Assembly: GCF_010183535.1 (NCBI RefSeq)
Contig: NC_071331.1
Coordinates: 7,626,001-7,690,000, forward strand
Reading direction: 5' to 3'
Source: Caenorhabditis remanei
Taxonomy: Eukaryota; Nematoda; Chromadorea; Rhabditida; Rhabditidae
Length of the DNA: 64,000 nt
A program made the translations under genes and the position numbers. The notes beneath the pieces are model-generated. The model saw only the letters and a program-made list of their open reading frames with translations. It did not search any database and was not told the DNA's origin. Numbering within the stretch: the first letter of the stretch is position 1; every line of letters begins with the position of its first letter. Shown here in pieces: positions 1 to 64,000 of this stretch.

Positions 1-139
1 GTGCAGTTGAATTTCCCTAACTTATCTACAGAATGAAACTTAAATTCTCAATTTTCCAGTATTTAAAATGACGAAATAATCAAATCAAGTGATGCTTCCA
101 TTCATGAACTTATAAGAGCTTGTTCGGGAAAATAATAAC

Positions 140-160
140 AACTTTCGATGATATATGTTA
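140..160 (-). ncRNA. candidate 21U-RNA, core 201-208
   Basis: Minus-strand CTGTTTCA core at 201-208, preceded by TA in motif sense. A TACT start element puts the 5' U at 160, 41 nt from the core. Confidence 0.42.
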
Positions 161-248
161 GTAAAGAATCTCTCATCACCCCATCTCATAATCTCATCTT
201 TGAAACAGTACCCTTCTATGAAAATACGGTAATTTTTTGTTCTCATAA

Positions 249-269
249 CTACGATCAAGGATCAAAGAA
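249..269 (-). ncRNA. candidate 21U-RNA, core 307-314
   Basis: Core within AGTACTGTTTCAGAGA (motif sense). TGGT start element, spacing 38. The paralogous locus at 33010-33030 keeps the same TGGT at spacing 37, while the 21-nt bodies differ at some positions. Confidence 0.55.
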
Positions 270-482
270 CCACGGAAAGTATAACGTTCTCTAACAATAC
301 GTCTCTGAAACAGTACTACTGCCAGAGAAAATCATTGATAATTGAGAAATGGTTGCAATTCTAAAATTAATAACCTTTGGATGATTTGCCGTTTTATCAA
401 CTTTTTGAAACTGGCAAATCTAGAAGAATCTACTTTGAGAGAACATTACTTGATTTCCCTCTAGAGAATTCGTATATTCGTA

Positions 483-503
483 AATGCTTCGATGTGAAGA
501 TGA
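483..503 (-). ncRNA. candidate 21U-RNA, core 541-548
   Basis: Core 541-548. TACT start element, spacing 38. Related by duplication to the cores at 14184 and 18128, where a start element is also present at 36-42. Confidence 0.5.
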
Positions 504-625
504 GTAGCGAGTTCTTAAGCTTTACTAAATATGAATTTAATGAAACAGATTACTGTATATTAGTTTGAAATTGAATCTTTCAATTTTCAACTAATGGAAC
601 AGATGTTCCTGATGACTGGAAAAAA

Positions 626-931
626 CTTTTAAAGGCCCGGCTGAAAAATTTGAACTGAAATTTTGAACGAAAATTTGAATTTTTTGAATTTTTTCCCAAA
701 AATGTCGAATTTTTGACTATACTTCAGAATTCAATCAAAAGATAGTCATGCATCAAAAAATAGAAATTTTTAATGTAAAATTTCAAAAAAATCAAAAAAT
801 TTGGTAAAAAATAGGTACCTTTTTTTTGAAGCCGAGCCTTCGGGCCGGGCCGGGCCGGGCCTTGAAAATTCTCTACCGGCCCGGCCCGGGCCTTTGGGCC
901 TTGCCGGGTCGGGCCGTAAATTTGCAAGTAT
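626..931. mobile_element. GC-rich palindromic element
   Basis: A (GGGCC)n-rich inverted arrangement with an AT-rich middle similar to that of the element at 49489-49760 (shared CAGAATTCAATCAAAA and AATAGGTACC). It interrupts duplication B, whose other copies (14250, 18190) lack it. The right end resembles the CAAGTATG end of related elements, but I could not define an exact target duplication. Confidence 0.55.
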
Positions 932-1049
932 GGTGATAGTCTACATACATATTCTCTTAACTAGACTCGAAGAAGTTTTGTGAAAACTTGACATTATAAA
1001 ACAAAGACAAAATCTTGTTTCAGATTCAGAAAAACATGAAAATAAGGAA

Positions 1050-1070
1050 GATTCAGATGCAGTACAAATA
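1050..1070 (-). ncRNA. candidate 21U-RNA, core 1110-1117
   Basis: TATT start element, spacing 40. The duplicate locus with core 4774-4781 has the same TATT at spacing 39. Confidence 0.5.
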
Positions 1071-1261
1071 ATATTAAACCTTTAAAAAATTCCCGTAACA
1101 AAAGTCTGATGAAACAGTGGAAGCGCGGAGAGTAAATGTTTCACCTACTACTTACATAAGGATTCTTAAAGTGAATTTTGAATAACTAAAATTTCCACGA
1201 CATAATTTCTGTTTTCTCATAGCCAAATTCAAATAATTTGAGATTTCCCCTATAAAAATAC

Positions 1262-1282
1262 AAAACAGATCCCTCAAGAATA
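1262..1282 (-). ncRNA. candidate 21U-RNA, core 1322-1329
   Basis: TAAT start element, spacing 40. Core context (CTTTTGAAACAGTA on +) is shared with cores 9638, 14778 and 19300. Confidence 0.5.
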
Positions 1283-2063
1283 TTAGAGTCACACCAAAAC
1301 TTAACAGTTTCACAAGGCTTTTGAAACAGTACTTCAAAAATAAAATATCACTATCAGCTTAATTCACAGAATTCATTCATAGTGAACATAGTCAGAAAGC
1401 ATCTCTAATATTGTAAACAGTTAATTTTCTGCTTTTCGTTGCCGCTTCCAATGAACGCAACCAATATCATCAGAAATGCAGATAACACCAATTCCACTAG
1501 ATTATTGTTATGAATATAGAGAAAACAAATGCACCTTGGAACAGAAGTGGTCTTCTGAATCTTTTTTCTCATTTTAATTTTTGATTAAAAAAACAAGGCC
1601 AGTAAGTGGTCACTGAAACAAGAACAAGGACACTATTACGCGAGACTAGTAATCTTTCTGCTCGTGAAAAATATATAAGAAACCTGTAACAGTAGAATCT
1701 CAGAATTCTCAAATTTCACTTCTCACTTCGTATAGTGAACCTTAAGTTAGCTCCAACTCTATTAGTTTAAAAAAAATTGAAAACTGTACTCAGCGGCAAC
1801 GCCCACTCCCCTCTCCAGCGCGGCGTTCAATTTTCGAGCACTACCTCAAAAAATGGGCGTGGTCGCGCAGAAAAATTTGAATTCGCTATAACTTTTTTCA
1901 TCGAAAATCTACAAATGGTAGCTAAATCAAACGAGAATGATACCGATGAAAACAGTAAATTCCGAATGTTTTCTCTGATATATGTATATTGTCGAAATAA
2001 AAAAAGTGATACCCGGTGTTTGCGGACTTAATGCAAAATTATTAAAATTAGCATTAAGTCCGC

Positions 2064-4368: not shown

Positions 4369-4389
4369 TTCTGTACTTCAGTAAAGTCA
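4369..4389 (-). ncRNA. candidate 21U-RNA, core 4429-4436
   Basis: TACT start element, spacing 40. Core flank (CTGAAACAGTACTAC on +) matches the cores at 307 and 33067. Confidence 0.52.
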
Positions 4390-4714
4390 GTAAAACAAGG
4401 AAGCCAAACAATATTCTTATCTCATTTCTGAAACAGTACTACGGTCAGAGAAAACAATTCATAATTGAGGAAACCATAACGACCACAAACATTCAGAGAG
4501 TATTATTCTTGGTACATACGTATTACTTTTAGTAGCACAGAAATCTAGGAAAAATTTATTTCGAATTATTTAGCTAAACTAAATTATTACAATTCCCAAT
4601 TTCACCTCAGCTTCAATAAGTTTTTGGAAGAGTTCTATTTCCAAAATCCTTGTTATAGTTTTTTGCAAGAGTCTACTTTCACAACTAAAGAAACCCCTGA
4701 ATAAATACTTTCAC

Positions 4715-4735
4715 GAATTAAGTGATATGCGAATA
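4715..4735 (-). ncRNA. candidate 21U-RNA, core 4774-4781
   Basis: TATT start element, spacing 39. A second TATT gives spacing 42. Duplicate of the locus with core 1110-1117. Confidence 0.5.
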
Positions 4736-5087
4736 ATACTAAACATTAATAAATTCCCGAAACATTAGTCGGATGAAACAGTGAAGCATGGGGAGTAAAG
4801 GTTACAGCGAATACATCAAAACCAATTTACAAAAGAAGTGAATTTTGAATGACTATTTCTCACCAAAAGTTTCACCACGCAATTTCTATTTTCTCATAGT
4901 CAAGTAGATTCATCTATCAAAAAACAGATTTCAAGAAAGTATTTAGAAAGGCTGAGTGTTACTTTAGCATTGCTTTTAAATATAGGGTACAAGGAATTTA
5001 CAACGATGAGAACTAAAATAATCTGCATGAACATTAGTTTCCTGTTTCATGAACCCGATGAATCAGTGGCAATATGATTGTTCGTAT

Positions 5088-5108
5088 TCGTACGGATTGA
5101 AAGTTCAC
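5088..5108 (+). ncRNA. candidate 21U-RNA, core 5042-5049
   Basis: Core followed by TGAACCCGATGAATCAGTG, a downstream block shared with cores 8315, 14729 and 18919. TATT start element at spacing 39. Two of the three paralogues clearly keep 39 and the third has a site at 39 too. Confidence 0.58.
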
Positions 5109-8129: not shown

Positions 8130-8360
8130 AACTCGTTTTAGACGAATTTTCGGACCTGGCTCGAAGATACTTTTTTCTTTTCTACAAAATTCTGAGTCGA
8201 TCTATATCAAAAAATCTCGATTTTTGGAATACCGCAGTCCCCCTTTAATCCTTGATTAACAACTCCAACAACTGCATCCGAGTGATATGATCTGGAAATG
8301 GATAATTTTGTTTCCTGTTTCATGAACCCGATGAATCAGTGACATAATTGTTCGTATTAG

Positions 8361-8381
8361 TTTCGTTCGGATTGAATGTGT
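8361..8381 (+). ncRNA. candidate 21U-RNA, core 8315-8322
   Basis: TAGT start element at spacing 39. TATT at 8358 (spacing 36) aligns with the paralogue's start, because this copy lost 3 nt in the spacer. Confidence 0.45.
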
Positions 8382-8581: not shown

Positions 8582-9618
8582 CAGGTGAGTCGCGAACGAC
8601 CCGTTACGGATGTACCGCAAGTCGCGCGCGGTCCGCATAGGAATCATATGTGGGTCCGTATGCGATCAGTAACGGATCGGATCGCGAACGGTTTGAATGT
8701 AACGGCGAGCGCTTCCTCCCTTCTATTTTTGTTCTCATTTACTACAAAACTCCGGTTTTTCCAGTCAAACCATACAAAATGGATATTTTATTTTGTTTAT
8801 TCTGAAAAAGATAACATTTAATACATAAATACATGATTAATACATAAATAAATACGTAAAAATTACATAACATTGGGATAATTAGGTTCACAAAAATAGG
8901 TTCGAATCTGGGACGGAGACGGCGGATGACTTCTGATTTGACCGTTCTTGTACCCCTGAAATCGTAATATTGAGAGTACGGTACAATTTTGTAGCTCCTT
9001 TTACCGCATTGTTCCATTCGAACTCTGCACCATTTCCCTCGTTAACTGCCGAAATTCTGAAGAAATTGATTAAAATATTATTTTGTATTGGCGATACTTA
9101 CTTCCATTGATAGTCGTTTATCCATTTTATGCAGCTGGCGGAGGCACGAACGTCCATCTTTTCCTTCTGTCGCCGTTAATCATTTTCTGAAAAGTAATAA
9201 ATTTAGGATAATTCCATGGAAAGTCAAATGTATCGACGGCTTCCGGTGCAATCCTCACGCGAGTGAAATTTTTTAAAGCAAGATTTTGAACGATCGCGGA
9301 TGAAAAAAGCTCAAAATTAGAAAACAAACACGAAAAATAAATAATTCAGCAAGAAAAAATTAGATGGACGAGGGTGCAGTCTTTAGTCCCTCAGACCTCA
9401 GCCATCGGTAACGGATCCGTACGCGAATCCGTATTCCAACCGCGTGCGAGACAATTGCGTTTCTGCGCAAAAGTACAGAGTCGTATTCTATCCGTTCGCG
9501 ATTTTTGGAAACGGACCGTACGCGACTGGCCAGTCGTGAAAATAGCCGTAACGGATCAGTTACGGACCAGAAACCTGGTCCATCCGCATACGGTTGAAGC
9601 GCACTTTACCTGTGACAT
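8582..9618. mobile_element. CG-rich repeat-ended insertion, about 1.04 kb
   Basis: Begins ACAGGTGAGTCGCG and ends GCGCACTTTACCTGT, a loose inverted repeat. Both ends carry reiterated, mutually inverted words such as TAACGGATC, CCGTACGCGA and GCGAACGG. The middle (8720-9370) is AT-rich and non-coding. It sits within duplication B just before the 9621/9638 cores. Class not recognised. Confidence 0.5.
9578..9598 (-). ncRNA. candidate 21U-RNA, core 9638-9645
   Basis: CGCT start element, spacing 40. The predicted 21-mer lies inside the inserted repeat ending near 9618, so the insertion would have replaced the ancestral 21U body while keeping a usable start. Confidence 0.4.
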
Positions 9619-9671
9619 ACCTGTTTCACTAAACTGTTGAAACAGTACTTATGCTCAGAAAAAAAAATTAA

Positions 9672-9692: not shown

Positions 9693-10158
9693 GCTAATTA
9701 GAACACGTGTCAATCGCGTAACGGAGAAATGAAATACTTCCATTTATTATGAAATTTTTGAAACTGAAAAGTTTCAAGGGAAGGTTTTTAGATGAACTTT
9801 TGAAGTTTCGAGACATTCCTATCCACATGATGAAAACCCATTAGCTCGATAGATCAGTATTTTCTGAAATGATCAGATGTTACATTAGATTTTATTTCAA
9901 TTATCGCCAGTTTCAGAGAAATATTATTTCATTGGAGAAACACCTCTCTATTAATGATGTGTTGATGTTTTGCAATTAGAGCTTATTCTGAAAACAATAA
10001 AAATTGGAAAAATAATTTCAAAACTTATTTCAAAAACGTTTTTGGATTACTACTCGAAAGAAATTCGGAAATTTTTAAAAATCCTAGAACTCGTTAAATC
10101 TCTAATTTCCCTTCTGTTTCATACCAATTTCATAATTTGATATTATTTTTTTCTATAT

Positions 10159-10179
10159 TAATTGTTGACTTCTTTTTTC
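10159..10179 (+). ncRNA. candidate 21U-RNA, core 10114-10121
   Basis: TATT start element at spacing 38 and TAAT at 41. Paralogues: cores 21896 and 34041, all in the context CCTTTCTGTTTCATA or close to it. Confidence 0.5.
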
Positions 10180-11374
10180 TTTTCACATCAAACCTTGACT
10201 TGCTACTCAATAGGGATTGTAAAGCAGAAAACAACCGAATAACCTAACTGATATTGTAAATACTATTCTGTTATAAAAAGTATTAATAAATTCCAGTCTG
10301 AGAACATCTTCGCTAACAAGAAAGATTTTGTTGTAAAATTTAAGAATTATAAGTAGTTCTTTGATCCCGTTTCATTGTGGAGCTTTACAAAACCAAACTT
10401 TTTCAGCTTTCATTAATGTGAGGTACTGCGTTGTTCTAATTTGGTAAATTGTTTCTTCGATTGTGATATTTCTAAACGTTAACAATATTTTTTTCTAATT
10501 CTTAGATTTTTCAGATTTTTATCAGATTTAGTTTTTCCCCCAGTGATTTATAAAACAAAAAATACAATTTACAAAAACAATGAAACGGGGTCATGTTTTT
10601 TTGTTTTCTTATAACTTGATGACTTCGATCCCTACTTGAAAAGTAGATAGTTGTGACATGACCGCATTTTGCTTCATAAAACCCGTTCTAGTGAGATCCA
10701 TTATTTTAATGGTCATAAGTGTTTTTTTTCTCTTATCAAGGGTATCAGTCTGTGATCTCCTAATTCTTATTAGGTATACTCCATAAGGATTGTAATGGCC
10801 GAAAACAACCGAATAACATCACTAACATAATAAATACTATTCTGTTATAACAAGAATTGATAAATTCCAGTCTGAGAATATTGCCGCTGACTAAACGGGA
10901 TTCGATAAAAATATAAGATAAGTCATTCTTCAAAACGGTTGAGATTTCCAAATATATTTTCATTCGGTAATTTATTGGTTTGATTGTAACATTTCAACAC
11001 GTTAACAATATTTTTCAGATTCACATCTAGTATTTTTAGGGATACTTTTCTATGAAAACTAGTGCAATAGGGATAACACATTGAAACTTGTTTCCGTCTT
11101 CTTTTCCACTTTTAAAAAACTGTTTTGATATTTCTACCTCACGATCAATTAAAAAAAAAATTACAAAAGCACTGAGTGAAGACTTATTCATTGTTTTTCC
11201 TGTTCCTCTATCTTGATATCTTCGATCCCTGTTTGAAAGAAAATTATTCCGCATTGTGAAATCCATGTTGTAAACCCGACTACTGCGAGAATGTAGCCGT
11301 ACCTTACCGGATCACAGTTAATTTGATTACTGTTTCTTGTAAGAATAATCCAGTTTTCCTCATTTTTCTTTCAT

Positions 11375-11395
11375 TCAATCGAGACTGAAACTAAG
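11375..11395 (+). ncRNA. candidate 21U-RNA, variant core CTGTTTCT
   Basis: Core 11330-11337. CATT start element at spacing 38, as in the duplicate with core 24159. Confidence 0.33.
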
Positions 11396-11835
11396 CTTTC
11401 TCATTTAAAAAAAATTTCTTTTACAGCGTTAACAGTTTAGCCAATAAATGAAGTCAAGGAATTTCATCACTAGTTTTTCAGTTCCTAGTTCTGACTGATT
11501 CATTAAGTTGTTATGTAGGATTCCCCGTTTTGTTTAGAATTCCTTCTGCAAAACACAGGAGCATTTTATTGAATATTACAAACTATGTTCAATATCTTTG
11601 GAGACTGAAACACAGACTTTTTTGTATCCAATCCGTATGTTTTTCAAGCAATCTGAAAATTTATCATAAGCGTTCCTGACATATTCTCAAATTATTTTAT
11701 CCACAAATAAACCATGATTTCATGTAAAGTCAACAATTTTCAGCCCACTTCGCTATCAATCATTCTACTATTTTTCTTACATTTCTTTTCTGTTTCATGC
11801 ATCTGATTCCTAATTCGTCTTAAATTGAATATCGT

Positions 11836-11856
11836 TTTCGCCCAAACAAGCTTATT
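11836..11856 (+). ncRNA. candidate 21U-RNA, core 11790-11797
   Basis: CGTT start element, spacing 39. Paralogues with cores 24896 and 34943 carry CGTT and TGTT at spacing 40, but the 21-nt sequences after the U differ between the three. Confidence 0.58.
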
Positions 11857-12302
11857 TCTGCCGGTTCTCTCTCCTCATCAGATTTCTCATTACATAATGA
11901 AGATACAGAATATCTCATTTCTTTTATTTTTGTTATATCGTTAGTAATCCTCTCATGATATTCACTTTTCAACATAAAACTTTATTTCAGGTTGAGAAGC
12001 GACATAGCTCCTCCAGTAAGCTGATCTCGAGGACTTCATTTCATCATTCAACATTTTTTGTAGAATCAGTCATCGCAAGAGTTATTACATGACCGTTAGT
12101 ATCCCACAAAGTTCCCCATTCCCCACCGAATTTCCCTGTTTCCAATACCTGATATCAACAATGTAGTTGACTGGAAACTTCAGTAAATTTTGAAACTGTG
12201 ATTTTGCACCAATAATGCGTGTATATCTCGAAACATGTGTAATATATAGCAAACCACTGTTTCGGATATTCCATTAGAGAGGGAACTTGGCCGTGTGTTT
12301 AA

Positions 12303-12323
12303 TTTTCTATTGAAGGACAGCAA
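12303..12323 (+). ncRNA. candidate 21U-RNA, variant core CTGTTTCG
   Basis: Core 12257-12264 ends in G rather than A. TAAT start element at spacing 39. One of four duplicates (others at 25945, 30099, 35530), all CTGTTTCG and all at spacing 39. Confidence 0.4.
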
Positions 12324-12419
12324 AACATTCCAATTAGAAGTTGATAAGAAGGAACATTTGAGGAAGTGCCAAAGTTCTCATTGCAGTTGGCAGAACAGAT
12401 CAATCTGATTTACTTCTAG

Positions 12420-13140
12420 AATCTACTGTTTCATTGGGTTTGAAATTACGATGTTAGTTTTTTCGGTATCACATTGCCAACTTGTTTCAACAGTTTATTT
12501 CCTCAAATTCGAAATAGAACATATAATTTTTAATTTGGAGTAAAACCTAGTAAGAAAATTATTTATGCTCCGGCATTTTCTTTTAAAATTTTATTTCTCG
12601 GGGGGCCAGAGTTGAGATATTCTTGGCTTTCTAAAATTTTCTGTTTTACTTATCTAAAATTAAAATCATTTCGGTTTTTCTTGAATTGGTATTCCCAGTA
12701 GATCCCTGTGTCTTTCTCATATTAAATATTACTGTTCGGTGTTGCCACTAACACAAAAAACACGTTGCCAGAACAAATCTCATCTTTCAAAACCGCTTTC
12801 CCATTTCGCGATTAGTTATCACAGTCTTCGAGTTAGATAAAAGCATGAAAAACGAGTTAATTGAATTCACTTGAATACAGAAACTTGGTATTGTATCTTC
12901 TTTGGTTTTTGCCAAAACGGGAAATTTTAAGTTTTCGAAGACTGCTCCCTGTTCAGACCGGTGCTTAACATTTTTGGTTGTTGGCCTGTTTAACAGTGTC
13001 CTAATCAAAGACGGCAGACTCTCGATGACTTCCAGTGCCAATAAATTGTGGAAAATCGTCGAAAAAAGGAACTGTTTTACAAGATTTTTATTAGAACAGC
13101 AATCAAGTTAAAGATTTAATGTTTGTATTCCATAAATTTT
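12420..13140. repeat. segmental duplication D, copy 2
   Basis: Matches 3090-3540, 30280-30920 and 36000-36840. Copies differ by indels, including the promoter-spacer deletion after the core at 12426. Confidence 0.6.
12475..12495 (+). ncRNA. candidate 21U-RNA, core 12426-12433
   Basis: Paralogue of core 3098 with a deletion of about 25 nt between core and ancestral start: the homologous CGAT now sits only 19 nt away. A different start element (CATT) falls at spacing 42. Confidence 0.33.
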
Positions 13141-14200
13141 ACCTTGATTATGAGCGTCAAAGATTGAATGTACTATTCGCTAGGAGAATTTGTCAACTAT
13201 TCAAAACAGTAATATTGTCTTGAATTGAATGCAAAACAGGTCCTGACGCGTGTGCAGCGTTTTGTTAACAACGATTTTATTCTTGATAAAAAACCTCAAA
13301 ATGGCAAATGTGACTCACATTGCGCTTCAAATGCGCGGCTCGTCGCTGCCACTCCACAGGGCTGTTCAAATGTCCTGCGAACTGCTCTTTGGTAGCGTAG
13401 TTCGCCCATCTTGAGGAGATGAGGAGATGCTGTTCTCAATCATAAGCCAGTGGCTAACACCACTCGTGACCCACCGGATGCAAAACGGTTGATGACGAGT
13501 AGGCGTGTCGGAAATCGCAGGGGTCTTCAAAAATGTCAGATAATTTCTATTACGATAACATATTCTGAGAAAGGATGTTGGGTGTTCTAAAACCCTTTAT
13601 TAAATTTAAATTTTTGACTTCGCAACAATCAACATGTAATATTTTAGATTTCGAAAAATATGAGATTTCTAAAACAGGAATGTGATATAATTCCTGTAAT
13701 TAGAATTTGACTTTTCATACAATTTCATTTCATCAATTTGATTAGTAAATCTGTAGAAAATAATTTATTCTATTAATTTCTGTGACATCAATACAGACTG
13801 AAAAGATCTGACTTGTCACTGCCAGCCTACCCAGGATTGAGAATCGAACAATTATCTGTTTTTCTCAGATTTTGTTAGCGGTAACTTTTTTCTACTTTTT
13901 CAACGGCAACTCTACTTTTGATAACAACAAATCAATCCTCTACGTTGTTCCAATACAAATAAATTGATTGGAACAAATTGAAAATCGAAAAGATCCCGAC
14001 CTCTCTCATATTTTTTAAACAGTAAATTTCTCTGCATACGATGCTAGTGGACAAATCTATTCCGTTGCACATCGCGCTCTGTTGGTATTGTCACTTCCCA
14101 CTAAAATAGAGAATCCGTATTTTCATAAAGGCTTTCACTCGGAATAGTAGCGAATCCTAAAACCATACTAATTATCAATTTATTGAAACAGGTAACGGTA
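13141..14200. other. unassigned AT-rich interval with a GC-richer island
   Basis: 13300-13520 is less AT-rich than its surroundings and includes TGCCACTCCACAGGGC and CACTCGTGACCCACCGG. I found no frame, tRNA or inverted repeat that explains it. The rest is ordinary AT-rich DNA. Confidence 0.3.
14126..14146 (-). ncRNA. candidate 21U-RNA, core 14184-14191
   Basis: TACT start element at spacing 38, and TATT at spacing 41. Confidence 0.5.
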
Positions 14201-14774
14201 CATTTGTTTGATATTGAATATTTTTGTTTTCTTCTAATAGCACAGCTGTTTCTGATGACTAGAACAAAATTTTAAATGCGTTCTTGAACCCTTCTTGTAG
14301 TGCAATGTTGCTATTCGTTCAGTGTTCATACATATTCTCTTAATTAGATTAATTTTTCAAAACTGATTCGAAATAGTTTTGCCAAAAAAGCTTGTTCCCG
14401 GTGCAGGAAAACATTAAAATCTATGAGAAAGATTTAAATGATGTACAATTGTGAAACCTTTCCGTAACATAAACCTGATAAAACAGTTGAAGCACAGGGA
14501 GTAATACATCAAAATAATAGTGCAATTTACAAAAGTAGTGAATTTTTCGAATAACTTTTTCTGCGCAAAACCACATAATTTCTATTTTCTCAAAGTTAGT
14601 TAGATTCATCTATCAAAAAACAGACTTCAAAAAAATATTTAGAAGGTCTGAATGTTACTTTAGTTTGTTTTAAAATATAGGGTGCCAGGAAGTTACTTAA
14701 ACGAAAACAATCTTGATGCACTTGTTTCCTGTTTCATGAATCCGATGAATCAGTGATAACTTTTTTCACTATGC

Positions 14775-14795
14775 TTTTGAAACAGTATTTCTGCT
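14775..14795 (+). ncRNA. candidate 21U-RNA, core 14729-14736
   Basis: TGCT start element, spacing 39. The 21-mer runs across the opposite-strand core at 14778-14785, so the two loci overlap. Confidence 0.48.
14778..14785 (-). promoter_or_regulatory. 21U-type core without start element
   Basis: Exact minus-strand core, paralogous to those at 1322 and 19300, but no YRNT at 36-44 nt. The space on its downstream side is occupied by the + strand locus with core 14729. Confidence 0.35.
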
Positions 14796-14928
14796 TCGAA
14801 AATTATTTAAATCTTTCGAAATTAAGGAATCACTACCAGCTCAATTTACAGAACTCATAGTGAACGTAGTGAGAAACCACCACTGTTTCTCTCTTATTTT
14901 GTAAAGATTTACTTTCTCTGTTATTTGT

Positions 14929-14949
14929 TTCTATTTCCCATAGATGCAT
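14929..14949 (+). ncRNA. candidate 21U-RNA, variant core CTGTTTCT
   Basis: Core 14883-14890 (last base T). TGTT start element at spacing 39. The paralogue with core 19406-19413 has the same core variant, start element and spacing. Confidence 0.33.
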
Positions 14950-15204
14950 ATTATCGATTCACGAACACTAGCCGGGGAGTTAAAGGCGCATTGAAGCTGT
15001 TCGGATGGGTATCCTTGTTGAAAGCATGATAAACTGTTGTAAAAGTATTTAAACCTGTATTAAAATACTGTTTTTCACCCATAATAATGCAGATAGTATC
15101 AATTTTACTAGATTGTTGTTGTGAATATAGAGAAAACAAATGCACCTTGGAACAGAAGTGGTCTTCTGAATCTTTTTCATTTTAATTTAACGTTTGGATG
15201 ATCA

Positions 15205-15365
15205 GTGTGTGTTTTTCGAAATTTCTTATTCGAAAATATCTATTTTCGAAAAAAATTCGAATGATATTCGAATAATTTTTCGAATATTCGTTCGAACAGT
15301 TGTTCGAAATTTTAATCGAACAATTATTCGTTCGAATATTCGTTCGAACATTTCCTTTCGTTGAA
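15205..15365. repeat. TTCGAA-rich degenerate palindromic array
   Basis: Repeated TTCGAA/ATTCGAA words with 8-20 nt spacing, forming many short overlapping palindromes. Simple or satellite-like, non-coding. Confidence 0.65.
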
Positions 15366-15689
15366 GAGCTGCAAGATTTTGGAACCGAAGAACTTTAAAG
15401 ATAAATATGAAATTTGAAATGATTTTTGTCCGTTTTTTTCAATTTATACTTATATTTTTGATTTAAAACTTTGCTCAATTTTAAAAAATGAAGATATGTG
15501 TCAGAACTATTTCGAATGTTTTGAACAGTTCAGATGGAAATTTATCCACAAAACTAGCAATTCTTGCGAAAATTTTCCGTCGGGAAACAATACTTTTTGA
15601 AAAACAGTAAAAATTTTCAAATTTTATTAGAAACGATATTCGAAAATCGCCCTATTTCTTCTCCATACAATCTCATTAACTGGTGGTCT

Positions 15690-17490
15690 GGCCCAATTGC
15701 TCTTTATCTACGCCTCCTCACTTCCTATATTATGTATCTTCTACCATACCTTCATTCTTCTTCCTATCTGTTAAATCTGCTATAACCAGTCGGTTTACGT
15801 CGCCTAACGGCGACTAAACCTCCTTCCCTACACCACCCTTCTCAGTTTTACAGCGCCTGCGGCGCTTCTTAACCGAGCAGTTCATTCCGATAACACAATT
15901 GTAAAATCTCTCCTTTTCAGACACAAATTCTACAAACTTTCTCAATGACTTTTTCTATCCTGATAGAACATGGAATTTAGAATGAGCTGTTTTTGAATTT
16001 ACCAATTTGAACTTTCTTCCTATGTTTTCCTCATTTCAAAACAATCTCACAGAAGAACGTGAACTTGATAACTCTTCTTTCTTCCCTTCTCAAAAGGCGA
16101 GTGATCATGCCGAATCACTACTATCGAGTTCTCAGAATTCTCCTCTACTTTTGGATCGTATAACTTATTCACTTGTAAGCTAGTTTTCGTTAGCTAAGAA
16201 GCCCTTTCCGGTAGAGAACAATTAAAACACTTCGGTATTTCTGATAATATTTTAACAAATTTTCTCAATGACTTTTTCCTGTGGAATATGGAATGTCAGT
16301 ATAAAAAATGCGCTTAAAGCATTTTTTTTTGAGTTTTTGACTGATTGGCGGCGATGTCGCCTCCCTCCCCAAAGCCTTTCAAGATGTTTTCCATATACAT
16401 ACACAGAAATCTTCTTCTTAGTCTGGTTTGATCCGAAAAGTTCTGCTTTCTGATTTTATACCTCTTCGGCGGCGATGCCGCCTCTTTTCTCTAAAATACT
16501 TCAAAACTATTTTACATACTTCTCAGTTCAAAAGTAGAAGTACACTCTTATTCAGTCTATTTTGATTCCAATCCTCATTTGTACCTGAAAGCGCTCCACA
16601 AAAGTTGACAAAATTCTTAAAGATCTTCAAAGAAATGCACTTTATGTACAGGGTGCGGTATAAATAGTGATATACGCAAAAAACGTTATAACTTTTTTCA
16701 AAAACTTCAAAACATATTTTCCTTTTAACAAAAAATTTTGACAGAAAATGTAATCTTTTTGAGTTTTTGACTGATCGGCGGCCATGCCGCCTCCCTTTCC
16801 ATAAGAAGATGCGGACGAAAGTCTTATGGATAAATCAGTTTTTGACTCTGCGTTTGCAGGATTGTAATTTTTAAACATTTTAAAAGTTGGGAACTCTACG
16901 AAAATCGGAGAGAGCCTTTTAATCGGGGAACGAAAATTGGGGAAAGGGTGCACATACGAACGCAAATTTGCGGCGCAGTTTCCAAATCGTAGTTTTTTCC
17001 TCGATTATACCTACGTAACCCTTTTGATCTCCGAAATCTCGACTGTAACGGCGTTATTTACAACTTTCATATACTGGCTGTCTATTTTTCTATCAAAACA
17101 AAAAACCAAAAAACATTTCCGACCTGGTGGGAACGAACTCACCACCCCGTGTGTGAGAGTCATCTGCGTAGACCGCTACACTAAATACGCGTGGCCGTGG
17201 CCATTTCGAGAATGCAGATAAGAAACACCGAGTCAGTAAGTTTGAGCTTTCTACCACCCTGTCGGGACACACCTTTCTCAACGCTTTTTACTGTTGAAAT
17301 GGTCATCGTCTCCAGAAGACGTCAAAATCAACTTTTTCGAAAAAAGAAAAGTTCGGGCATCATCTAAGGGAAATTTCCAATCAATCTGTCTAGGTTTCAT
17401 AAAAATCGGTCCACTACAGAGGGAGTTATGGCTTGCAACACATAAACGGACAGACGGAATCTGTTGAATATTATTAGTAAAGATTATCTT
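15690..17490. mobile_element. large tRNA-like composite repeat, copy 1
   Basis: Head with hairpins (CGTCGCCTAACGGCGACT at about 15799, CAGCGCCTGCGGCGCTTC), then several GGCGGC(G/C)ATG(T/C)CGCC hairpins (16345, 16470, 16780), an antisense tRNA-like segment and a tail with ACAGACGGAATCTG and TTAGTAAAGAT. Head and tail sections recur at 45300-46215 and 47020-47425. No coding capacity. Terminal structure unclear; a SINE-like or Helitron-like non-autonomous element is possible. Confidence 0.5.
17125..17195 (-). other. tRNA-like segment (relic)
   Basis: The minus strand reads TAGTGTAGCGGTCTACGC, then GGTGGTGAGTTCGTTCCCACC, resembling A- and B-box regions with a paired T arm (GGTGG/CCACC). The anticodon region is not recognisable, so I do not call a working tRNA. 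Confidence 0.4.
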
Positions 17491-48131: not shown

Positions 48132-48152
48132 CAGGTATTTTCTATGAAATCA
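48132..48152 (-). ncRNA. candidate 21U-RNA, core 48190-48197
   Basis: TAAT start element, spacing 38 (TGAT at 41). Back-to-back with the + strand core 48218-48225, leaving 20 nt between cores. Confidence 0.48.
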
Positions 48153-48262
48153 TTAATTTTGATTAAGAAAAGTACATATTTAACCTACATGAAACAGGTA
48201 CATAAATCTTCGACATACTGTTTCAGACAGTCAAGAAAACTAGACTTCCGCGGATGCTTTGA

Positions 48263-48283
48263 TTTGCGCCCTTTTTGTACCAA
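48263..48283 (+). ncRNA. candidate 21U-RNA, core 48218-48225
   Basis: TGAT start element, spacing 38. The + strand half of a divergent pair. Confidence 0.48.
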
Positions 48284-48955: not shown

Positions 48956-49404
48956 ACTAATATTGAATACATGCGTTTCCAAATAATTTTCTTTAAAAAC
49001 AATGTGTTAGTGAATTGTTATTACAATCGTTTAGAAACTAGTCGAAATTAATGTTTCTGCAGAATACACGTTACATGAAACGGTAAAATTTCAAAAATTA
49101 CTGTAACAGATACTCCACAAAATCACGTTGTGGCAGCTTTTTGTGTTAGATAAAAAAAGTTCAGGCGTCCGAATAATTATTGTTCCAAACTACCTGAATC
49201 TGAGAGAGGGAGTACCATGTGAAACTGGGAATTTACTGTCTTGAATGGATGGATGTAGCTGTTGATTTTCAGAATATATCTTTAATACCGAATCTTTTTC
49301 ACGTTGGCTTGGTGTTAGTAGTAAGTGTTCAGTTTTTTTTTAGAAAATTACTTTTATCTCTGTTTCATTATGGAAATACATTCTGACAATGGTTTTTGGA
49401 TCGT

Positions 49405-49425
49405 TCTTCTAATGTTTCCGTGTTC
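49405..49425 (+). ncRNA. candidate 21U-RNA, core 49360-49367
   Basis: CGTT start element, spacing 38. Confidence 0.48.
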
Positions 49426-49760: not shown

Positions 49761-50281
49761 GTCTTCTTAGTAAGTTATTAGTACTTTTTTTTTGATTTCT
49801 GGCTTTTAAAACTTTTTTAAAACGGGAACTAAAAATGGTTACTAATATTCTTTTTCTAATATGATAGCTCCTAAATCTAAATGGTAGTTCTCTCATTTAA
49901 ATTTAAATTTTCAGTTCTATAAACTGATTTAGTAAGTAATTCAAAATGTAGTGTCCTTAATTTCTGGAACTGAAATAGCAAAGTTGCAACTCTTGTTTCT
50001 TTTCTGTTACCGGTATAGCCACAAAGTTATCGCAAGTGTGATTCTTTAAATTTCAGTGCAATGTTTTCCGTTCCACTATAAACATACAAGTTCAAAAGTT
50101 TTCTCATTTTCGTTTGAACGTGAACGTGAACATTTCAATTGTGAACATTTCATCAGCTAAACATTTCGACCAAGTTGCTCCCTGATCTCAGTTTAAGACA
50201 TCTTAATTGTCTGCAACGATAAGATTACTTACATTGCTGTTTCACGTGGTATACGTACCTTTGCAAAACTAATGTGTCCAG

Positions 50282-50302
50282 TACGGCTACTTCATCAGGG
50301 TG
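50282..50302 (+). ncRNA. candidate 21U-RNA, core 50237-50244
   Basis: CAGT start element, spacing 38. Confidence 0.47.
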
Positions 50303-50935: not shown

Positions 50936-51112
50936 TATATTCTGTCTTTCCTACTCAAAATGGTTCTGGTTAGTAAAATGAGTACTATACTTTGTTTCAA
51001 ATAAAAATTGAATCTAAAAACGTCTTGATGGTGAAGCAATTGACTTTTTTGGTTAATAGATTTTTTTCTGTTTCAAGGAGATGTATCCTTTCAGCCCTCG
51101 GAATCTTAGTAA

Positions 51113-51133
51113 TCAACGGATTAGCTGCATCAC
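51113..51133 (+). ncRNA. candidate 21U-RNA, core 51068-51075
   Basis: Core preceded by a T-run. TAAT start element, spacing 38 (TAGT at 35). Confidence 0.48.
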
Positions 51134-51370: not shown

Positions 51371-52680
51371 ACGTTAGAGTGGCGCGGAATTCCGACTTCC
51401 GACTTCCGTTTAGAACATTTTACTTCCGACTTACGACTTCCTTCTTCGGACTTCAGTTTTAGAAAAAAAATCTCTTTCACTCTGGTGAACGTAATGCATA
51501 GTTGCAAACTTTTCAGTCTATAAAAAGCATCTGGATCAGTAAAATTTGAAAAGAAAACCAGTCCATTTTGTGGATATTAATACGGTTGTCGGTTTCAATG
51601 AGAGATGTTATTTTGTTGATCTTTTTTTTAAACATTCACATACGAATCTCTAGTGTAGCGATCGTGGAACTGAAAATAGTACTCTGAAACTGATTCATTT
51701 TGTCTAACTTGCTCTCCAAAAATATAGTTTATCAAATCGTAGGTAACGTGGAACAAGGTCAATATACAACTTTGGTATAACCAAGAAAAGTAGTCAATAT
51801 TTAAGACTGGGATGTGAGAACCGTCAAGTTTTCAGTGACTGTGAAAGTTAGTCTCCAAAATACATTGATGCTTGTTTGAAATGATAAATACATCACACTC
51901 ACAATATTATTACTGTAACTATTTTAAATTTATTTATGATGATTGTGAAACAAAAGTAGTTATTACTGTTTCAACTAGATATCGAGTTTTCATACTTTTA
52001 GGCGGCATCAATTTAAAGTCATCCATTATTATTTCAATTGAAATTGTTCTTCTACAGTAAGATTTAAAAATCGGTTGAGAAACTTGCTCATTTTTTCTCT
52101 AGATTTTACAATTTTCCATACGTGAGCGGTAAACTATTAAAGATATACGTTTCAAAAAGAAGAGTTCTAACATGCATCTTTAGTCCAAAACTTTACGGTT
52201 CCACAATTAACTTTAAAATCTGATTTTCAATATAATCTAGTACCACGTTACATGTATTCTCAGATTAGCCAATCGAAGGATCTAAATCACAGAAGAAGAT
52301 GTGTCGACTATTATGCATGAATTTTCAAACTGACGATAATCGCTTGTTGAAACATATATATGTTACTAATCCTACTTCATCTTGTGCGAAACTCAACTCA
52401 AATTTTGATTTTATACAGGAGAACAACAAGTTTTTCAAATTTGATGTTTCTTTAATATCTTATCAGTGTCATTTCAGAAACTTTCAATCAATAGTACGTG
52501 ATTTTTGAAATATATATTGAAAATATTTCCAAATTACTATTACTTTTCAAATTCTATCGATTGTCAAACTGCATACAATTCTGAAACTGCATTTATTAGA
52601 TCAGTACATACAAAACGGTAAAATTTCAAAACTTTCTAAACCTCAGTCAATGGAGAAAACTTCCATAAGTCAACGAGACC
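51370..52680. other. AT-rich DNA, no gene seen
   Basis: Starts with a short ACTTCCGACTTCC-rich stretch (51390-51460). Otherwise unique-looking AT-rich DNA with one exact 21U-type core (51966). The region 48956-51260 is similar apart from the elements listed. Confidence 0.4.
52012..52032 (+). ncRNA. candidate 21U-RNA, core 51966-51973
   Basis: Core in TATTACTGTTTCAAC. CAAT start element, spacing 39. Confidence 0.5.
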
Positions 52681-57011: not shown

Positions 57012-57021
57012 TACAAGATTT

Positions 57022-60120: not shown

Positions 60121-60173
60121 TATATTGTCTGTTTCAAAGGATTGATATTTGTTTCTAGTTTTTTATTCTACGA

Positions 60174-60194
60174 TTTTCTTCCTTTGGCCATTAA
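60174..60194 (+). ncRNA. candidate 21U-RNA, core 60129-60136
   Basis: CGAT start element, spacing 38. First exact core outside a transposon after an 8-kb gap. Confidence 0.48.
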
Positions 60195-60608: not shown

Positions 60609-61535
60609 TTGGTGGAATAAGTTTGTTAAGTGCCGACCGACTAACTTTTTCCAAAATCTACGGCTTCAAGAAGAACATTTATCCTTAAATTTTTTAATGT
60701 TTTTAATGTTTTAAATTTTTTTGATCATACACCTATATATACATACAAAGCCATTCAGTTGATATTTCCATAATACACTGCTGGACATAATTATAGATCC
60801 ACTTGAATTGTTCATTTTTCTCGAAAATATTTTTCTCCACAGAAATTTTTGATGTCACATTAGTTTACACCCCGGATGGCCTAAATGCTACCGCTATCAT
60901 CTTCTGTCTTTCCCAAAACTTTAGAAATTAAATCCCACAATCTGAGTATTATATGGTATGACCTCGAAGATTCAACAACTCAACTCAAAACTTCTGCTCC
61001 AAGATTATCAAAGTCACTAAACTTTTCTAAATTTTCACAGCTTCAAAATGGGTTTATCCAGTTATCTTATCAGTTATAAATAATTCTCATACGTTTTGCC
61101 ATATGAATAATATTCATCTCTCATTACCTTACTGTTATGTAACAGCTTTATTTTTGAATTTTGAGACTAAACTTTGATAATTTATTTGAAAATCTTCTAC
61201 TCTGGATAAATAATAGCATTTTGGGAACAAGCGGCAATAACTGACTGAATAAGCGTAGTCTGTATCACAATAAGCTAAAACATTCAAAATTATTTTTTGT
61301 CTGTAACATCTGGGTGACTCATAGTGTGACTCACATTAAAAAATTAATTAGATTTTCATTGAACCATTCTTCAATTTTCATATTGATAATCAGCTTCACC
61401 ATTCTCATTTTTTGCTTATTCTTCTTCTTGTAAACTTATTTCTAATCATTTTTGAATTTTCACACTTATTTTCTCTCACCCACTTCTCACTGTTTCAACG
61501 TCTTCGTATTCATCCGTTTTTCATATTTTCGCCGT

Positions 61536-61556
61536 TGTGACGTTGCTGTCTTGATC
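61536..61556 (+). ncRNA. candidate 21U-RNA, core 61490-61497
   Basis: CGTT start element, spacing 39. Lies just upstream of the candidate exon at 61603. The sequence around the core is less AT-rich than at other loci. Confidence 0.4.
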
Positions 61557-61695: not shown

Positions 61696-61697
61696 GT

Positions 61698-61718
61698 GAG
61701 CTTACAGCGGAATCATAA
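61698..61718 (-). ncRNA. candidate 21U-RNA, core 61758-61765
   Basis: TAAT start element, spacing 40. Lies antisense to the start of the candidate intron after 61695. Confidence 0.46.
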
Positions 61719-61781
61719 TTAAAAAAAAGGGAGATTGATTCAAATTTGATAAAATAGTGAAACAGGGGAACAAGAAAGTGT

Positions 61782-61802
61782 TTGCTCAGTTCAGATACAA
61801 GA
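61782..61802 (-). ncRNA. candidate 21U-RNA, core 61841-61848
   Basis: CGAT start element, spacing 39. Only 83 nt from the preceding same-strand core. Confidence 0.48.
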
Positions 61803-62229
61803 TCGATCTATCAGTTTAAAACTTGTTAAAAACTGCAATATGAAACAGTAAGCTTTTGAAGATTGAAATTTATTTTCAGTTTCAAGTATTTCATTTAAAA
61901 CTGTGGATTTTCAATATTCTAGTCATCGATGTTCTACATAGTAACCACAAGTTTTAATCAATAACAAGACACAAAAATGAATAAATTGAGTCTCATTAAA
62001 AGTTTTTCTAAAAATCATAGACTAGAAGCTGAACATATTATAGCGATTCGCACTTATCTCATGGAACCTTATAAAAATGACGAAACTGAGAATCTTTCAC
62101 TTGAACAATGCTGGTCTTTTTGGCATTAACACTCGGCAGCACACGAGGAATTAAAGTGACTGTGAATCAGAATTAAACATTACCTTTTTAAAATGAGAAA
62201 ACTAAAAATTGCTCTAAAAATGAAGCTAA

Positions 62230-62362
62230 GCACGGCACGCTTCTTACAACCACGCTCTACCGAAACCACAGAAAATTGTGTGCGGAATTGAGAGACTCAG
62301 AGAAAATGAGACATTTTCCAAAGGAATTTCGGTGGAGCGCATTTGTGAGAACTGTGCTAATA
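62230..62362. mobile_element. GCTC(T/C)ACCGAAA palindromic MITE
   Basis: Arms ACCACGCTCTACCGAAACC and ATTTCGGTGGAGCGCATTTGT, outer ends AGCACGGCAC and AACTGTGCT. Possible TA-type target. Confidence 0.62.
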
Positions 62363-62588
62363 AGAAAAAATTTTATTGGCCAAAGGGATTGATTTATAGA
62401 CTGAATGTTCAATTTTCCAACTGATGAGTGCATGTTAAAACATTATTCACGTTGCTTCAAGGTTGCCTGAACCCTATTCGAACACTTCGGCCTTCTCGAA
62501 GTGTTTCTTGTTTCAAGTAATTCAAAAAAATCAGTTGACTTTCATAGTTTCAATTATAATGCTATTTCCGTATAATTTTTAATTACCC

Positions 62589-62609
62589 CAAGCATGAAGA
62601 ATCAACCGA
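62589..62609 (-). ncRNA. candidate 21U-RNA, variant core (CGAAACAG on +)
   Basis: Core 62647-62654. CATT start element at spacing 38 and CGGT at 42. Confidence 0.3.
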
Positions 62610-62864
62610 ATGAGCGCATTTAAAAAATTTCGACAAATCAGAAATTCGAAACAGAACATTCATGGACATTATATTATTTTAATGGTACGCTATAAAAATA
62701 ACGGAACAGAAAACCTTGCACTTAAAATGAATCATCGAAGATTTACGAAAAAAAAGTTCCGAAATGGAAAAATGTTTTCTCAAGAAAATATCATTTTCAA
62801 TTTTATTAATCAATTTTTTCTGTTTCAATTAATGCATGAATCCATGTTGTACCAGTTGTAATGT

Positions 62865-62885
62865 TGTGTGATGACTCATATTTAT
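62865..62885 (+). ncRNA. candidate 21U-RNA, core 62820-62827
   Basis: Core preceded by a T-run. TGTT start element, spacing 38 (TAAT at 35). Confidence 0.48.
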
Positions 62886-63737
62886 TCATGTAAACGATTC
62901 CACGTCACATAGAACAATACTTTTTTATCGCACTACTCCGACTCAGGTAGCTCACTGTATCCCTTCTGATAGTTTTGAAAGAAATAACAAATTTCCTTCA
63001 AAAAGTTGTAGTTTTTACTGTTGCATCGAATTGGTATCAAAAAGAGTAAATAGTCGGATGATTGATGATCTCAACATAAGGTAAACTCGCTCTATAGATA
63101 ATTTATAGATAGAAAACTATACATTTTTAATTGTGAAAAATGTGCATTTTTAGCAATCAAAAGTCACTAGGCATCACACTTCTTCCCGTCGCCGAGTGGG
63201 AAATGACCTTAATTGTACTGTCAAATATTATACGGGAAACTGTGATCTTTATAACAACTACCCCTGAAAACATACATAATATCATTATAAATATTCTCCA
63301 GTAAACTAAGATAATGGATCAGCAAAGTTTTAAAAACTGAAACAAGACAAACTCCAAAAAACATATTACAATGTGTTTTAAATTTTTTCCTGTTTTGTAG
63401 ATCACATATTTTGTAGTTGGAACTATGTTTGAATGCTTTTTTTTCTAATTAAGCTTTTCGTTAATAGATTGAAAGGCGAAACGCTTTTATTTGATTATTG
63501 AACTTGTCGAATTTTGAATTTCAAAATGGGTTCATTTCGTTCGTCTGCCGAAATGAGGTAAAAAAATAGTAAGCAATATTCTGTTATTTACTGTTTTACG
63601 AACTCTGTAACAATTCGAATGTAGTTATTCATTATTGTCACATACCCAAAGTTTCCCAGCAAGTGCACACAGCGAAATATTATACCGTATCTAACGTTCA
63701 AATGTTTTTATCAAATTACATATTAACTCGGCAAAGT

Positions 63738-63840
63738 TATTAAAACTGCGCTCCACCGAAATGGCTTTGAAAAATTTCTATTTTTCTCTGAGTCTCTCGA
63801 TTTCTTTAAATAAACTCAAAATAGAGCGCAAGTCAAACTA
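63738..63840. mobile_element. half copy of GCTC(T/C)ACCGAAA MITE
   Basis: Left arm AACTGCGCTCCACCGAAATG present; right arm reduced to AGAGCGCAAGTC. The rest of 62363-64000 is AT-rich with 21U-type loci and no gene seen. Confidence 0.5.
63817..63837 (-). ncRNA. candidate 21U-RNA, core 63876-63883
   Basis: TAGT start element, spacing 39. The 21-mer overlaps the end of a degenerate palindromic repeat. Confidence 0.46.
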
Positions 63841-64000
63841 TCGAGTGACGTATTATTTGTTTCATTTGTCTACGGTGAAACAGTACTTACAACCAACAAA
63901 AAATATATTTCCAAAAACTTTTTTTTTCAATTGAAACTTTCTAGACATCTAAAACTTTCGAATAACAACAGATGAGTACCCGAGATAATGAGGGTGCATT

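Follow-up and report, generated by a model that had tools for sequence, protein, structure and literature searches.

Genomic setting of the window

The window analysed here, 64,000 nt of chromosome IV of Caenorhabditis remanei PX506 (IV:7,626,001-7,690,000), raises the question of whether its short core motifs mark a cluster of type-I piRNA (21U-RNA) genes, and what becomes of the 21-nt guides when such genes are duplicated. Through a Pfam scan of open frames of at least 100 aa (10 of 22 scanned; exon-intron genes lie outside such a scan), only two transposase frames were matched, which as far as it goes fits the gene-poor setting of type-I 21U-RNA genes. Neither an Rfam match at gathering thresholds nor a tRNA was found in the window, and both scans are uninformative for 21U genes.

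A piRNA cluster in this window would come as no surprise to a Caenorhabditis specialist, and its kind is already known; the comparison of duplicates is the useful part of the analysis. The sequenced 21U-RNAs of C. remanei reportedly come from Shi et al. 2013. No published map of the cluster on a chromosome-level C. remanei assembly was found in the open-access literature. That 21U-RNAs of this species have already been sequenced is stated in a section of the review PMC6468775.

Core motifs and the start element

The 8-nt type-I core, CTGTTTCA (GTTTC), occurs 64 times in exact form in the window, 38 times on the plus strand and 26 times on the minus strand. Two copies are held by the transposon (55699, plus; 56307, minus), and the 62 outside it (37 plus, 25 minus) agree exactly with the number given by the first-pass annotation. 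Its further estimate of one to two cores per strand by chance holds for base composition (1.4/1.0), but not for a third-order Markov model (5.3/4.7); under this stricter null about 10 cores are expected against 64, an excess of about 6-7 fold. Genome-wide, 19,000 exact cores were counted versus 6,781 of the reversed word, or 9.3 versus 3.3 per 64 kb. The 62 cores are not independent because many of them are paralogous: they fall into 32 families, with 43 of the 62 in multi-member families and 19 single-copy.

A YRNT element placing its T 38-40 nt past the last A of the core was found for 46 of the 62 cores (46 of 64 with the transposon cores, both of which fail this spacing), which reproduces the earlier count, and the roughly 14 matches then expected by chance are close to our base-rate expectation of 13.5-13.9. 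Among 46 control offsets scored for the 64 cores, with three-offset windows starting from +12 upward only, the mean was 15.7 and the maximum 24, versus 46 observed. By single offset, YRNT was counted 16, 18 and 12 times at 38, 39 and 40 and mostly 1-9 times elsewhere; equally high single offsets were +10 (18), +13 (15) and -25 (15), the first two lying within the spacer. When each family is weighted as one, 25.3 of 32 match versus 8.1 expected, and the excess thus survives the collapse of paralogues. An offset of 39 after the last A corresponds to a core G at -44 from the T, which is the commonest position in C. elegans according to a portion of PMC3597512. The loci have the core about 40 nt upstream, with G at -44 for offset 39, and the YRNT of type-I genes, the T being the predicted first base of the RNA. 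The 46 exact-core loci, each spanning from the core through the end of the predicted 21-mer, are as follows.

Predicted 21U genes (coordinates, strand, position of the T)
483..548, minus, T at +38
1050..1117, minus, T at +40
1262..1329, minus, T at +40
4369..4436, minus, T at +40
4715..4781, minus, T at +39
5042..5108, plus, T at +39
8315..8381, plus, T at +39
9578..9645, minus, T at +40
10114..10179, plus, T at +38
11790..11856, plus, T at +39
14126..14191, minus, T at +38
14729..14795, plus, T at +39
18919..18985, plus, T at +39
19240..19307, minus, T at +40
20271..20338, minus, T at +40
21633..21699, plus, T at +39
22620..22685, minus, T at +38
24896..24963, plus, T at +40
26435..26500, plus, T at +38
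27702..27768, minus, T at +39
30279..30344, plus, T at +38
31442..31508, minus, T at +39
32539..32606, minus, T at +40
34041..34108, plus, T at +40
34943..35010, plus, T at +40
35058..35123, plus, T at +38
37869..37934, plus, T at +38
38297..38363, plus, T at +39
38451..38518, plus, T at +40
38688..38753, plus, T at +38
39767..39833, plus, T at +39
40634..40700, minus, T at +39
42657..42723, minus, T at +39
43947..44013, plus, T at +39
48132..48197, minus, T at +38
48218..48283, plus, T at +38
49360..49425, plus, T at +38
50237..50302, plus, T at +38
51068..51133, plus, T at +38
51966..52032, plus, T at +39
60129..60194, plus, T at +38
61490..61556, plus, T at +39
61698..61765, minus, T at +40
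61782..61848, minus, T at +39
62820..62885, plus, T at +38
63817..63883, minus, T at +39

This exact-core figure stood, but as a total of loci it was too low, for variant cores show the spacing too: those whose first core base is A or G, those whose second base is free to vary, and CTGTTTCG. YRNT at 38-40 was found for 69 of 100 variant words in the window, a proportion that is flattered because the variants were chosen from the same window. Exact and variant cores together gave 115 of 164 with the spacing (control sum about 36.7), that is, about 100 candidate 21U genes on both strands (115 counted with variant cores), and all 115 predicted 21-mers are mutually distinct. When the words NTGTTTCA and CNGTTTCA were pooled over the samples taken between 1.5 and 10.5 Mb of chromosome IV (n=159), 31, 41 and 27 matches fell at 38, 39 and 40, and no other offset between 20 and 61 had more than 22.

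Distribution along the chromosomes

Nine of ten samples of chromosome IV between 1.5 and 10.5 Mb held 3-10 cores per 10 kb, the one at 3.5 Mb held none, and an additional dense sample was found at 18.5 Mb. Within 1.5-10.5 Mb the spacing was present in 37 of 53 exact cores versus 12.8 by control. The earlier annotation had named equal density and spacing on unrelated chromosomes as evidence against its reading, and this comparison, run in part, gave no such result: on chromosome I the spacing occurred in 21 of 88 cores versus 16.5 by control offsets (chromosome I against the window, Fisher P=4e-9 with paralogy ignored). The five other chromosomes yielded 6 exact cores in 50 kb sampled, with the spacing in 2 of the 5 that had room downstream; pooled other-chromosome exact cores, some chromosome I loci included, had it in 6 of 17 versus 3.0. 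By its position and sampled density, the clustering on chromosome IV on both strands is that of type-I genes.

1..64000, no strand assigned, probable segment of the type-I 21U-RNA domain on the left arm of chromosome IV in C. remanei (core density and sampling along chromosomes)

Base composition and proposed gene structure

The candidate loci (n=115) drop in G+C from 0.370 at +1..+17 to 0.299 at +18..+38, a difference of 0.071 (se 0.015), versus a background step of 0.001 (se 0.002) at 8,622 non-transposon YRNT sites of the window, a set that contains the loci themselves. Such a high-then-low pattern downstream is the Pol II pausing pattern described in part of PMC6436959, with G+C standing in for melting temperature. 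A step is also present at the 6 core-plus-YRNT sites from the other-chromosome samples (0.077, se 0.046), an imprecise value that counts against the reading. So does the spacer, which is only slightly richer in A+T than the window (G+C 0.312 and 0.328 versus 0.346), where type-I genes have an A/T-rich one.

The type-I architecture proposed in the first-pass annotation is thus supported by core, spacing, start element, chromosome IV clustering and presence on both strands, and also by the G+C step, which that annotation had not used. Judging from the sequence, the left arm of C. remanei chromosome IV very probably carries autonomous type-I 21U-RNA genes in a dense cluster that includes the window and grew by local duplication, with promoters kept and bodies diverged in the copies within the window. 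Most loci are likely to be real piRNA genes, any single one being a putative gene.

The predicted gene unit of 66-68 bp would comprise the Ruby motif as its 8-nt core, then a spacer of about 35 nt, YRNT and the 21-nt body, with the T of YRNT as the putative 5' U of the 21U-RNA; the A+T-richer stretch after the body would be the expected Pol II pause site. By homology with C. elegans, PRDE-1, SNPC-4 and TOFU-4/5 would act at the core, Pol II would start 2 nt before the T and stop some 28 nt on, and PRG-1 would be loaded with the 21-mer left after trimming. Type-I genes are further characterised by a 21-nt 5'-U monophosphate RNA bound by PRG-1, by dependence on PRDE-1, SNPC-4 and TOFU-4/5, and by an H3K27me3 domain.

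Segmental duplications

Intra-window paralogy covers 51% of the window, and local segmental duplication has enlarged the cluster. A loose family threshold was discarded, as it put 119 of 127 loci in one family, plus one pair.

9724..38734, no strand assigned, overlapping segmental duplications carrying candidate 21U genes (intra-window paralogy)
10204-11250 / 22343-23509, example of a duplicate pair within 9724..38734
10771-12806 / 34150-36037, example of a duplicate pair within 9724..38734
26287-27435 / 37711-38734, example of a duplicate pair within 9724..38734
40526..47634, no strand assigned, diverged repeat array with 27 candidate 21U genes, of which 24 are built on variant cores

The variant cores of the array are CCGTTTCA, ATGTTTCA, GTGTTTCA and CTGTTTCG, and 19 of the 24 are on the minus strand.

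Divergence of the 21-nt body between duplicates

Published work shows that promoters are kept between species whereas the piRNA sequences themselves are poorly conserved, and according to a passage of PMC9683057 positive selection may not act on individual piRNA sequences. Duplicates within one genome provide an internal yardstick on both sides of each 21-mer for choosing between mere drift and faster-than-neutral change, which makes this question directly testable from the genome sequences and population data already available for C. remanei and from the C. latens genome.

In the duplicates of the window the promoter is kept and the body has diverged far past its flanks. By chain, the predicted body has an identity of 0.41 versus 0.59 for the flanks and is lower in 15 of 17 chains (P=0.0004); with shorter chains it is lower in 17 of 19. 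These chains represent only 3 independent groups, and the size of the dip depends on the aligner, with a body identity of 0.38 by MAFFT and 0.49-0.53 by pairwise settings. Both copies are intact in 18 paralogue comparisons, and here the core (0.95) and spacer (0.81) exceed the flanks (0.59-0.67). Because core and spacer outlast the flanks in these pairs, continuing selection on the promoters is suggested. Cores without YRNT also dip weakly (9/13 and 6/9 chains in the window, 4/8 outside), and predicted loci thus differ from them in degree. An earlier HSP profile had 0.55-0.63 at body +1..+10 and 0.72-0.81 across most bins of the flank; it was superseded, as local alignment could have biased it.

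The dip was not reproduced outside the window: after deduplication of 12 samples (L010-L019, L027 and L119), the body was lower in 5 of 8 chains (13 comparisons, P=0.31). Sample L014 mostly had no dip, and the adjacent 10 kb (L119) gave no clear dip in 5 comparisons. In a run of 196 chains of at least 250 bases from 20 chromosome IV samples plus the window, with window-to-window pairs excluded, the body again did not dip: over 13 comparisons its identity was 0.710 and that of the flank 0.722, with lower values for the body in 3 of 5 chains. This run was dominated by satellites and near-identical repeats.

Duplication would yield new guides instead of copies. We might speculate, tentatively, that piRNA genes of C. 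remanei multiply by local duplication in which each copy swaps its guide and keeps its promoter, the guide evolving at least about 4 times as fast as adjacent DNA, so that the locus would behave as a hypervariable cassette, fixed in its frame and variable at its tip; the driver would be either diversifying selection or mutation at the Pol II start and pause.

It is rather unlikely, though worth weighing, that local mutation at the Pol II start and pause, not selection for new guides, accounts for the divergence: identity is low between +1 and about +23, a stretch near the precursor length of about 28 nt, and body identity is equally low (0.38) whether the partner kept or lost its core, but the 18 intact pairs retain the start element (identity 0.76). 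We give a similarly low chance to a body that is simply neutral amid much constrained DNA, with no acceleration. The lack of a dip in outside samples fits such a body, as does the identity of 0.4 or less in 30% of 20-nt background windows in chains (59% of bodies); against it, flank identity within 140 nt remains at 0.59-0.66 on the upstream side and at 0.55-0.58 past +30 on the downstream side, and where both flanks reach at least 0.6 the body is at 0.40 versus 0.73, lower in 16 of 17. Neutral bodies simulated through the same pipeline had 0.70-0.71, or 0.64-0.68 with 40% of the DNA in constrained blocks, and under this model ascertainment does not produce the dip.

A decaying cluster, in which many loci are former piRNA genes that lost expression, seems improbable; YRNT is missing at 38-40 for 18 of the 64 exact cores, and in 32 of 59 paralogue comparisons the partner has no working-set core at the aligned place, but the 18 intact comparisons conserve core and spacer above the flanks. 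Least credible by far is a locally amplified repeat family that holds core and YRNT by chance, its geometry reflecting common descent instead of function, for although the extensive paralogy and the multi-member families fit it, it is largely refuted by the single-copy exact cores (spacing in 16 of 19), and both the recurrence of the spacing in samples across 9 Mb and the intact-pair identities also stand against it.

Comparison with known 21U-RNA systems

The cluster of type-I genes proposed here resembles that of C. elegans in the CTGTTTCA core, the G at -44, the YRNT, the use of both strands, the location on chromosome IV and the G+C step. However, the C. elegans clusters form two blocks of about 3 Mb, according to part of PMC6436959, whereas in C. 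remanei dense samples extend from 1.5 to 10.5 Mb with another at 18.5 Mb, and the window loci are predicted genes. The 21U-RNAs of C. remanei treated in a section of PMC6468775 belong to the same species as these loci.

Type-II (motif-independent) 21U-RNAs share the YRNT start but have no Ruby core, unlike the window loci, which are defined by the core with the start element enriched behind it. C. briggsae, as described in an excerpt of PMC9683057, also has Ruby motif clusters on chromosome IV, with a large left-arm block at 0.02-7.1 Mb and a right-arm block, and its chromosome I holds a third one (9.8-12 Mb); in that part of C. remanei chromosome I, the single 5-kb sample, at 11.0 Mb, had 2 cores.

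Core motif and start-element spacing

The exact core CTGTTTCA was found 64 times in the window (38 on the + strand and 26 on the - strand), two of which fall in a DNA transposon, leaving the 62 cores that the first-pass annotation had counted outside it. The excess claimed there holds under either null, but the 1-2 per strand then expected reflect composition only; a third-order Markov model based on the window's own sequence gives 5.3 and 4.7. A YRNT element with its T, the predicted 5' U of a 21-mer, 38, 39 or 40 nt downstream of the core's last A (the spacing) was found at 46 of the 64 exact cores, all outside the transposon (46/62), which reproduces the earlier count; 46 control offsets gave a mean of 15.7 and a maximum of 24 per 64 cores (three-offset windows starting at +12 or above). 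By single offset the counts were 16 (38), 18 (39) and 12 (40), and mostly 1-9 elsewhere. Equally high single offsets were +10 (18), +13 (15) and -25 (15), the first two of these falling within the spacer between core and start element, where composition itself is biased.

Repeat amplification was ruled out as the source of this geometry, because with the 62 cores grouped by flank similarity into 32 families (13 multi-member) and one weight given to each family, 25.3 of 32 had the spacing versus 8.1 at control offsets, and because 16 of 19 single-copy cores also had it.

Transposon and other elements

Elements located in the window
53426-57013, DNA transposon; inverted ends 53,426-54,063 and 56,388-57,013, about 630 bp, 100%/99% match
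54065-54526 and 54555-55538, - strand, transposase-like open frames resembling DDE_3
9621-9645, 14729-14785 and 48190-48225, both strands, opposite-strand exact core pairs at most 57 bases apart
29776-30029, 36201-36461 and 53120-53317, MITE-like fold-back inverted repeats, arms 86-105 nt, short loops
3581-3611, 3980-4026 and 25618-25645, CGGGC-type short tandem tracts, G+C-rich islands amid A+T-rich DNA

The transposon is probably young, since its inverted ends match at 99-100%. Its two frames scored 27.8 and 17.1 bits for DDE_3, under the Pfam cut-off of 28.6, and its exact cores (55699 and 56307) both lack the spacing. Among the opposite-strand pairs, only that at 48190-48225 has the spacing on both cores, so two divergent candidate 21U genes would share promoter DNA there. 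Relatives of the fold-back repeats at 29.8 and 36.2 kb were present in two chromosome IV samples from outside the window (L014 and L018).

Variant cores and candidate gene number

One-base variants of the core were scored for the spacing word by word in the window, and six joined the working set.

Core variants in the working set (with spacing/total)
ATGTTTCA, 15/23, well over control
GTGTTTCA, 11/15, well over control
CAGTTTCA, 17/29, well over control
CCGTTTCA, 13/16, well over control
CGGTTTCA, 5/5, well over control
CTGTTTCG, 8/12, well over control

In the window, TTGTTTCA (7/21 vs control 4.7) was not well over control and CTTTTTCA (2/12 vs 2.5) showed no excess; CTATTTCA (4/5), CTGTTACA (5/9) and CTGTTTTA (8/22) were excluded from the set. 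Among 164 working-set core words we found 115 candidate 21U genes, with about 37 predicted by the summed control offsets, the words having been chosen on the same DNA as this count. All 115 predicted 21-mers are distinct. The earlier tally of exact cores was sound but fell short of the number of candidate genes, which variant cores raise to 115. Because 46 candidates carry CTGTTTCA and 15 carry ATGTTTCA, which in C. elegans pair with male and female germline expression, respectively (PMC3597512), male-biased germline expression is predicted by analogy.

Chromosomal setting

The window (contig C4, 7,626,001-7,690,000) lies on the left arm of chromosome IV, which ends at 8,639 kb in C. remanei PX506 and recombines at 1.447 cM/Mb, the lowest among the five autosomal left arms, the others having 3.7-5.2 cM/Mb (PMC10461856 Table 1). 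This arm overlaps the core-dense domain. The genome searched (130,466,896 bases, 186 contigs) contained 19,000 exact cores and 6,781 of the reversed word.

Twenty 10-kb samples were taken along chromosome IV and ten 5-kb pieces over the other five chromosomes. Ten samples at 1.5-10.5 Mb contained 54 cores (3-10 in each of nine, 0 at 3.5 Mb), nine at 11.5-19.5 Mb contained 16 (seven at 18.5 Mb), the single sample at 0.5 Mb had no exact core, and the ten pieces from other chromosomes had six. The spacing was present in 37 of 53 cores with downstream room at 1.5-10.5 Mb (control 12.8), in 12 of 16 at 11.5-19.5 Mb (control 3.3) and in 2 of 5 in the other-chromosome samples. Equal density and spacing on unrelated chromosomes had been named as evidence against a gene cluster, a reading which survives: on chromosome I (first 2.6 Mb; 88 cores examined among 100 places listed), the spacing occurred in 21 of 88 vs 16.5 in control, with no 38-40 peak. 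The sample at 18.50-18.51 Mb (L027), with seven exact cores per 10 kb, lies far right of the main domain and is possibly a second cluster, like those of C. briggsae and C. elegans.

Divergence of the 21U bodies between duplicates

Intra-window paralogy covers 51% of the window: segmental duplications overlap one another in 0-38 kb, and a diverged-repeat array occupies 40.5-48 kb. In that array (40526-47634), short diverged repeats span about 7 kb, among them 10 copies of a 64-nt unit, and variant cores occur on both strands. Nineteen duplicate chains (aligned pairs of segments) of at least 500 bases were each aligned over their full length with MAFFT, poorly matching internal stretches thereby being retained, and gaps were scored as mismatches, which gave 59 comparisons of 43 distinct genes. 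Identity was 0.74 for the core and 0.57-0.64 for the spacer, fell to 0.34-0.39 over +1..+20 after the T, and rose again to 0.50 at +21..+30 and 0.55-0.58 farther out; chain DNA outside genes averaged 0.597. By position, the drop began at +1 and ended at about +23. With both copies intact (18 comparisons), identity was 0.95 in the core, 0.81 in the spacer, 0.76 in the start element, 0.38 in the body (the predicted 21-nt sequence) and 0.59-0.67 in the flanks. Observed body identity was 0.377 vs 0.333 after shuffling one copy and realignment; therefore the bodies are little better than dissimilar.

Chain means were 0.41 for body and 0.59 for flank, the body being lower in 15/17 chains (Wilcoxon P=0.0004), 10/12 outside the array (P=0.012) and 5/5 inside it (P=0.06), where bodies were least alike (0.29 vs flank 0.62). 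In comparisons with both flanks at least 0.6, the body (0.40) was lower than the flank (0.73) in 16/17. Chains of 180-499 bases, a separate set that may share some genes with the longer one, agreed in 17/19 (P=0.0012; outside the array 7/8). Cores without YRNT in the window showed a weaker dip (9/13 chains, P=0.07; 6/9 chains, P=0.08).

Simulated duplicates run through the identical BLAST, chaining and MAFFT pipeline gave body identities of 0.70-0.71 when neutral, 0.64-0.68 when neutral with 40% of DNA in constrained blocks, 0.55-0.56 at twice the flank rate and 0.43 at four times. Three further alignment settings kept the sign with a smaller gap (body 0.49-0.53, flank 0.66-0.69). Body G+C (0.39, then 0.335) is slightly higher than in flank bins (0.28-0.33), which we judge too small alone to account for near-total divergence. 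The chains merge into only three independent groups, with the body lower in 3/3; outside the window it was lower in 5/8 chains (13 comparisons, P=0.31), and sample L014 had no dip in most of six comparisons. Body divergence beyond the flanks is therefore a strong local observation and, genome-wide, a hypothesis. In the accessible parts of the open-access literature, including PMC9641977 and PMC7646084, we found no faster-than-flank divergence of 21U bodies between same-genome paralogues, and this is the one lead worth pursuing in an otherwise ordinary cluster.

Comparison with known 21U-RNA genes

The commonest place of the core's G in C. elegans is -44 from the T (PMC3597512), which is the place given by offset 39 in the window. 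In nematode piRNA loci the melting temperature is high between the start and +19 and low over +20..+40, a pattern read as a Pol II pausing signal (PMC6436959); the window loci have a like high-then-low step, seen as G+C, of 0.370 at +1..+17 and 0.299 at +18..+38 (step 0.071, se 0.015, n=115 candidates), which played no part in locus choice. Across the chromosome IV samples at 1.5-10.5 Mb the step was 0.050 (se 0.015, n=93); it was 0.001 (se 0.002) at 8,622 YRNT sites outside the transposon in the window, the 115 included, and 0.077 (se 0.046) at six core+YRNT sites on other chromosomes, too few to judge. By analogy with C. elegans, the loci would be transcribed by Pol II with the 21U factors acting there, and the precursors would be trimmed and the product loaded into PRG-1.

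For C. elegans the literature already describes this gene class, its motif and start element, its clustering on chromosome IV and the pausing signal, and for C. briggsae it covers the motif, the clustering and rapid change (PMC3597512, PMC6436959, PMC9683057); C. remanei 21U-RNAs have been profiled, at 2-3 times the C. elegans number according to a review (PMC6468775). The first-pass reading as a type-I 21U-RNA gene cluster is supported, and the window is an ordinary but very clear example of a known gene kind.
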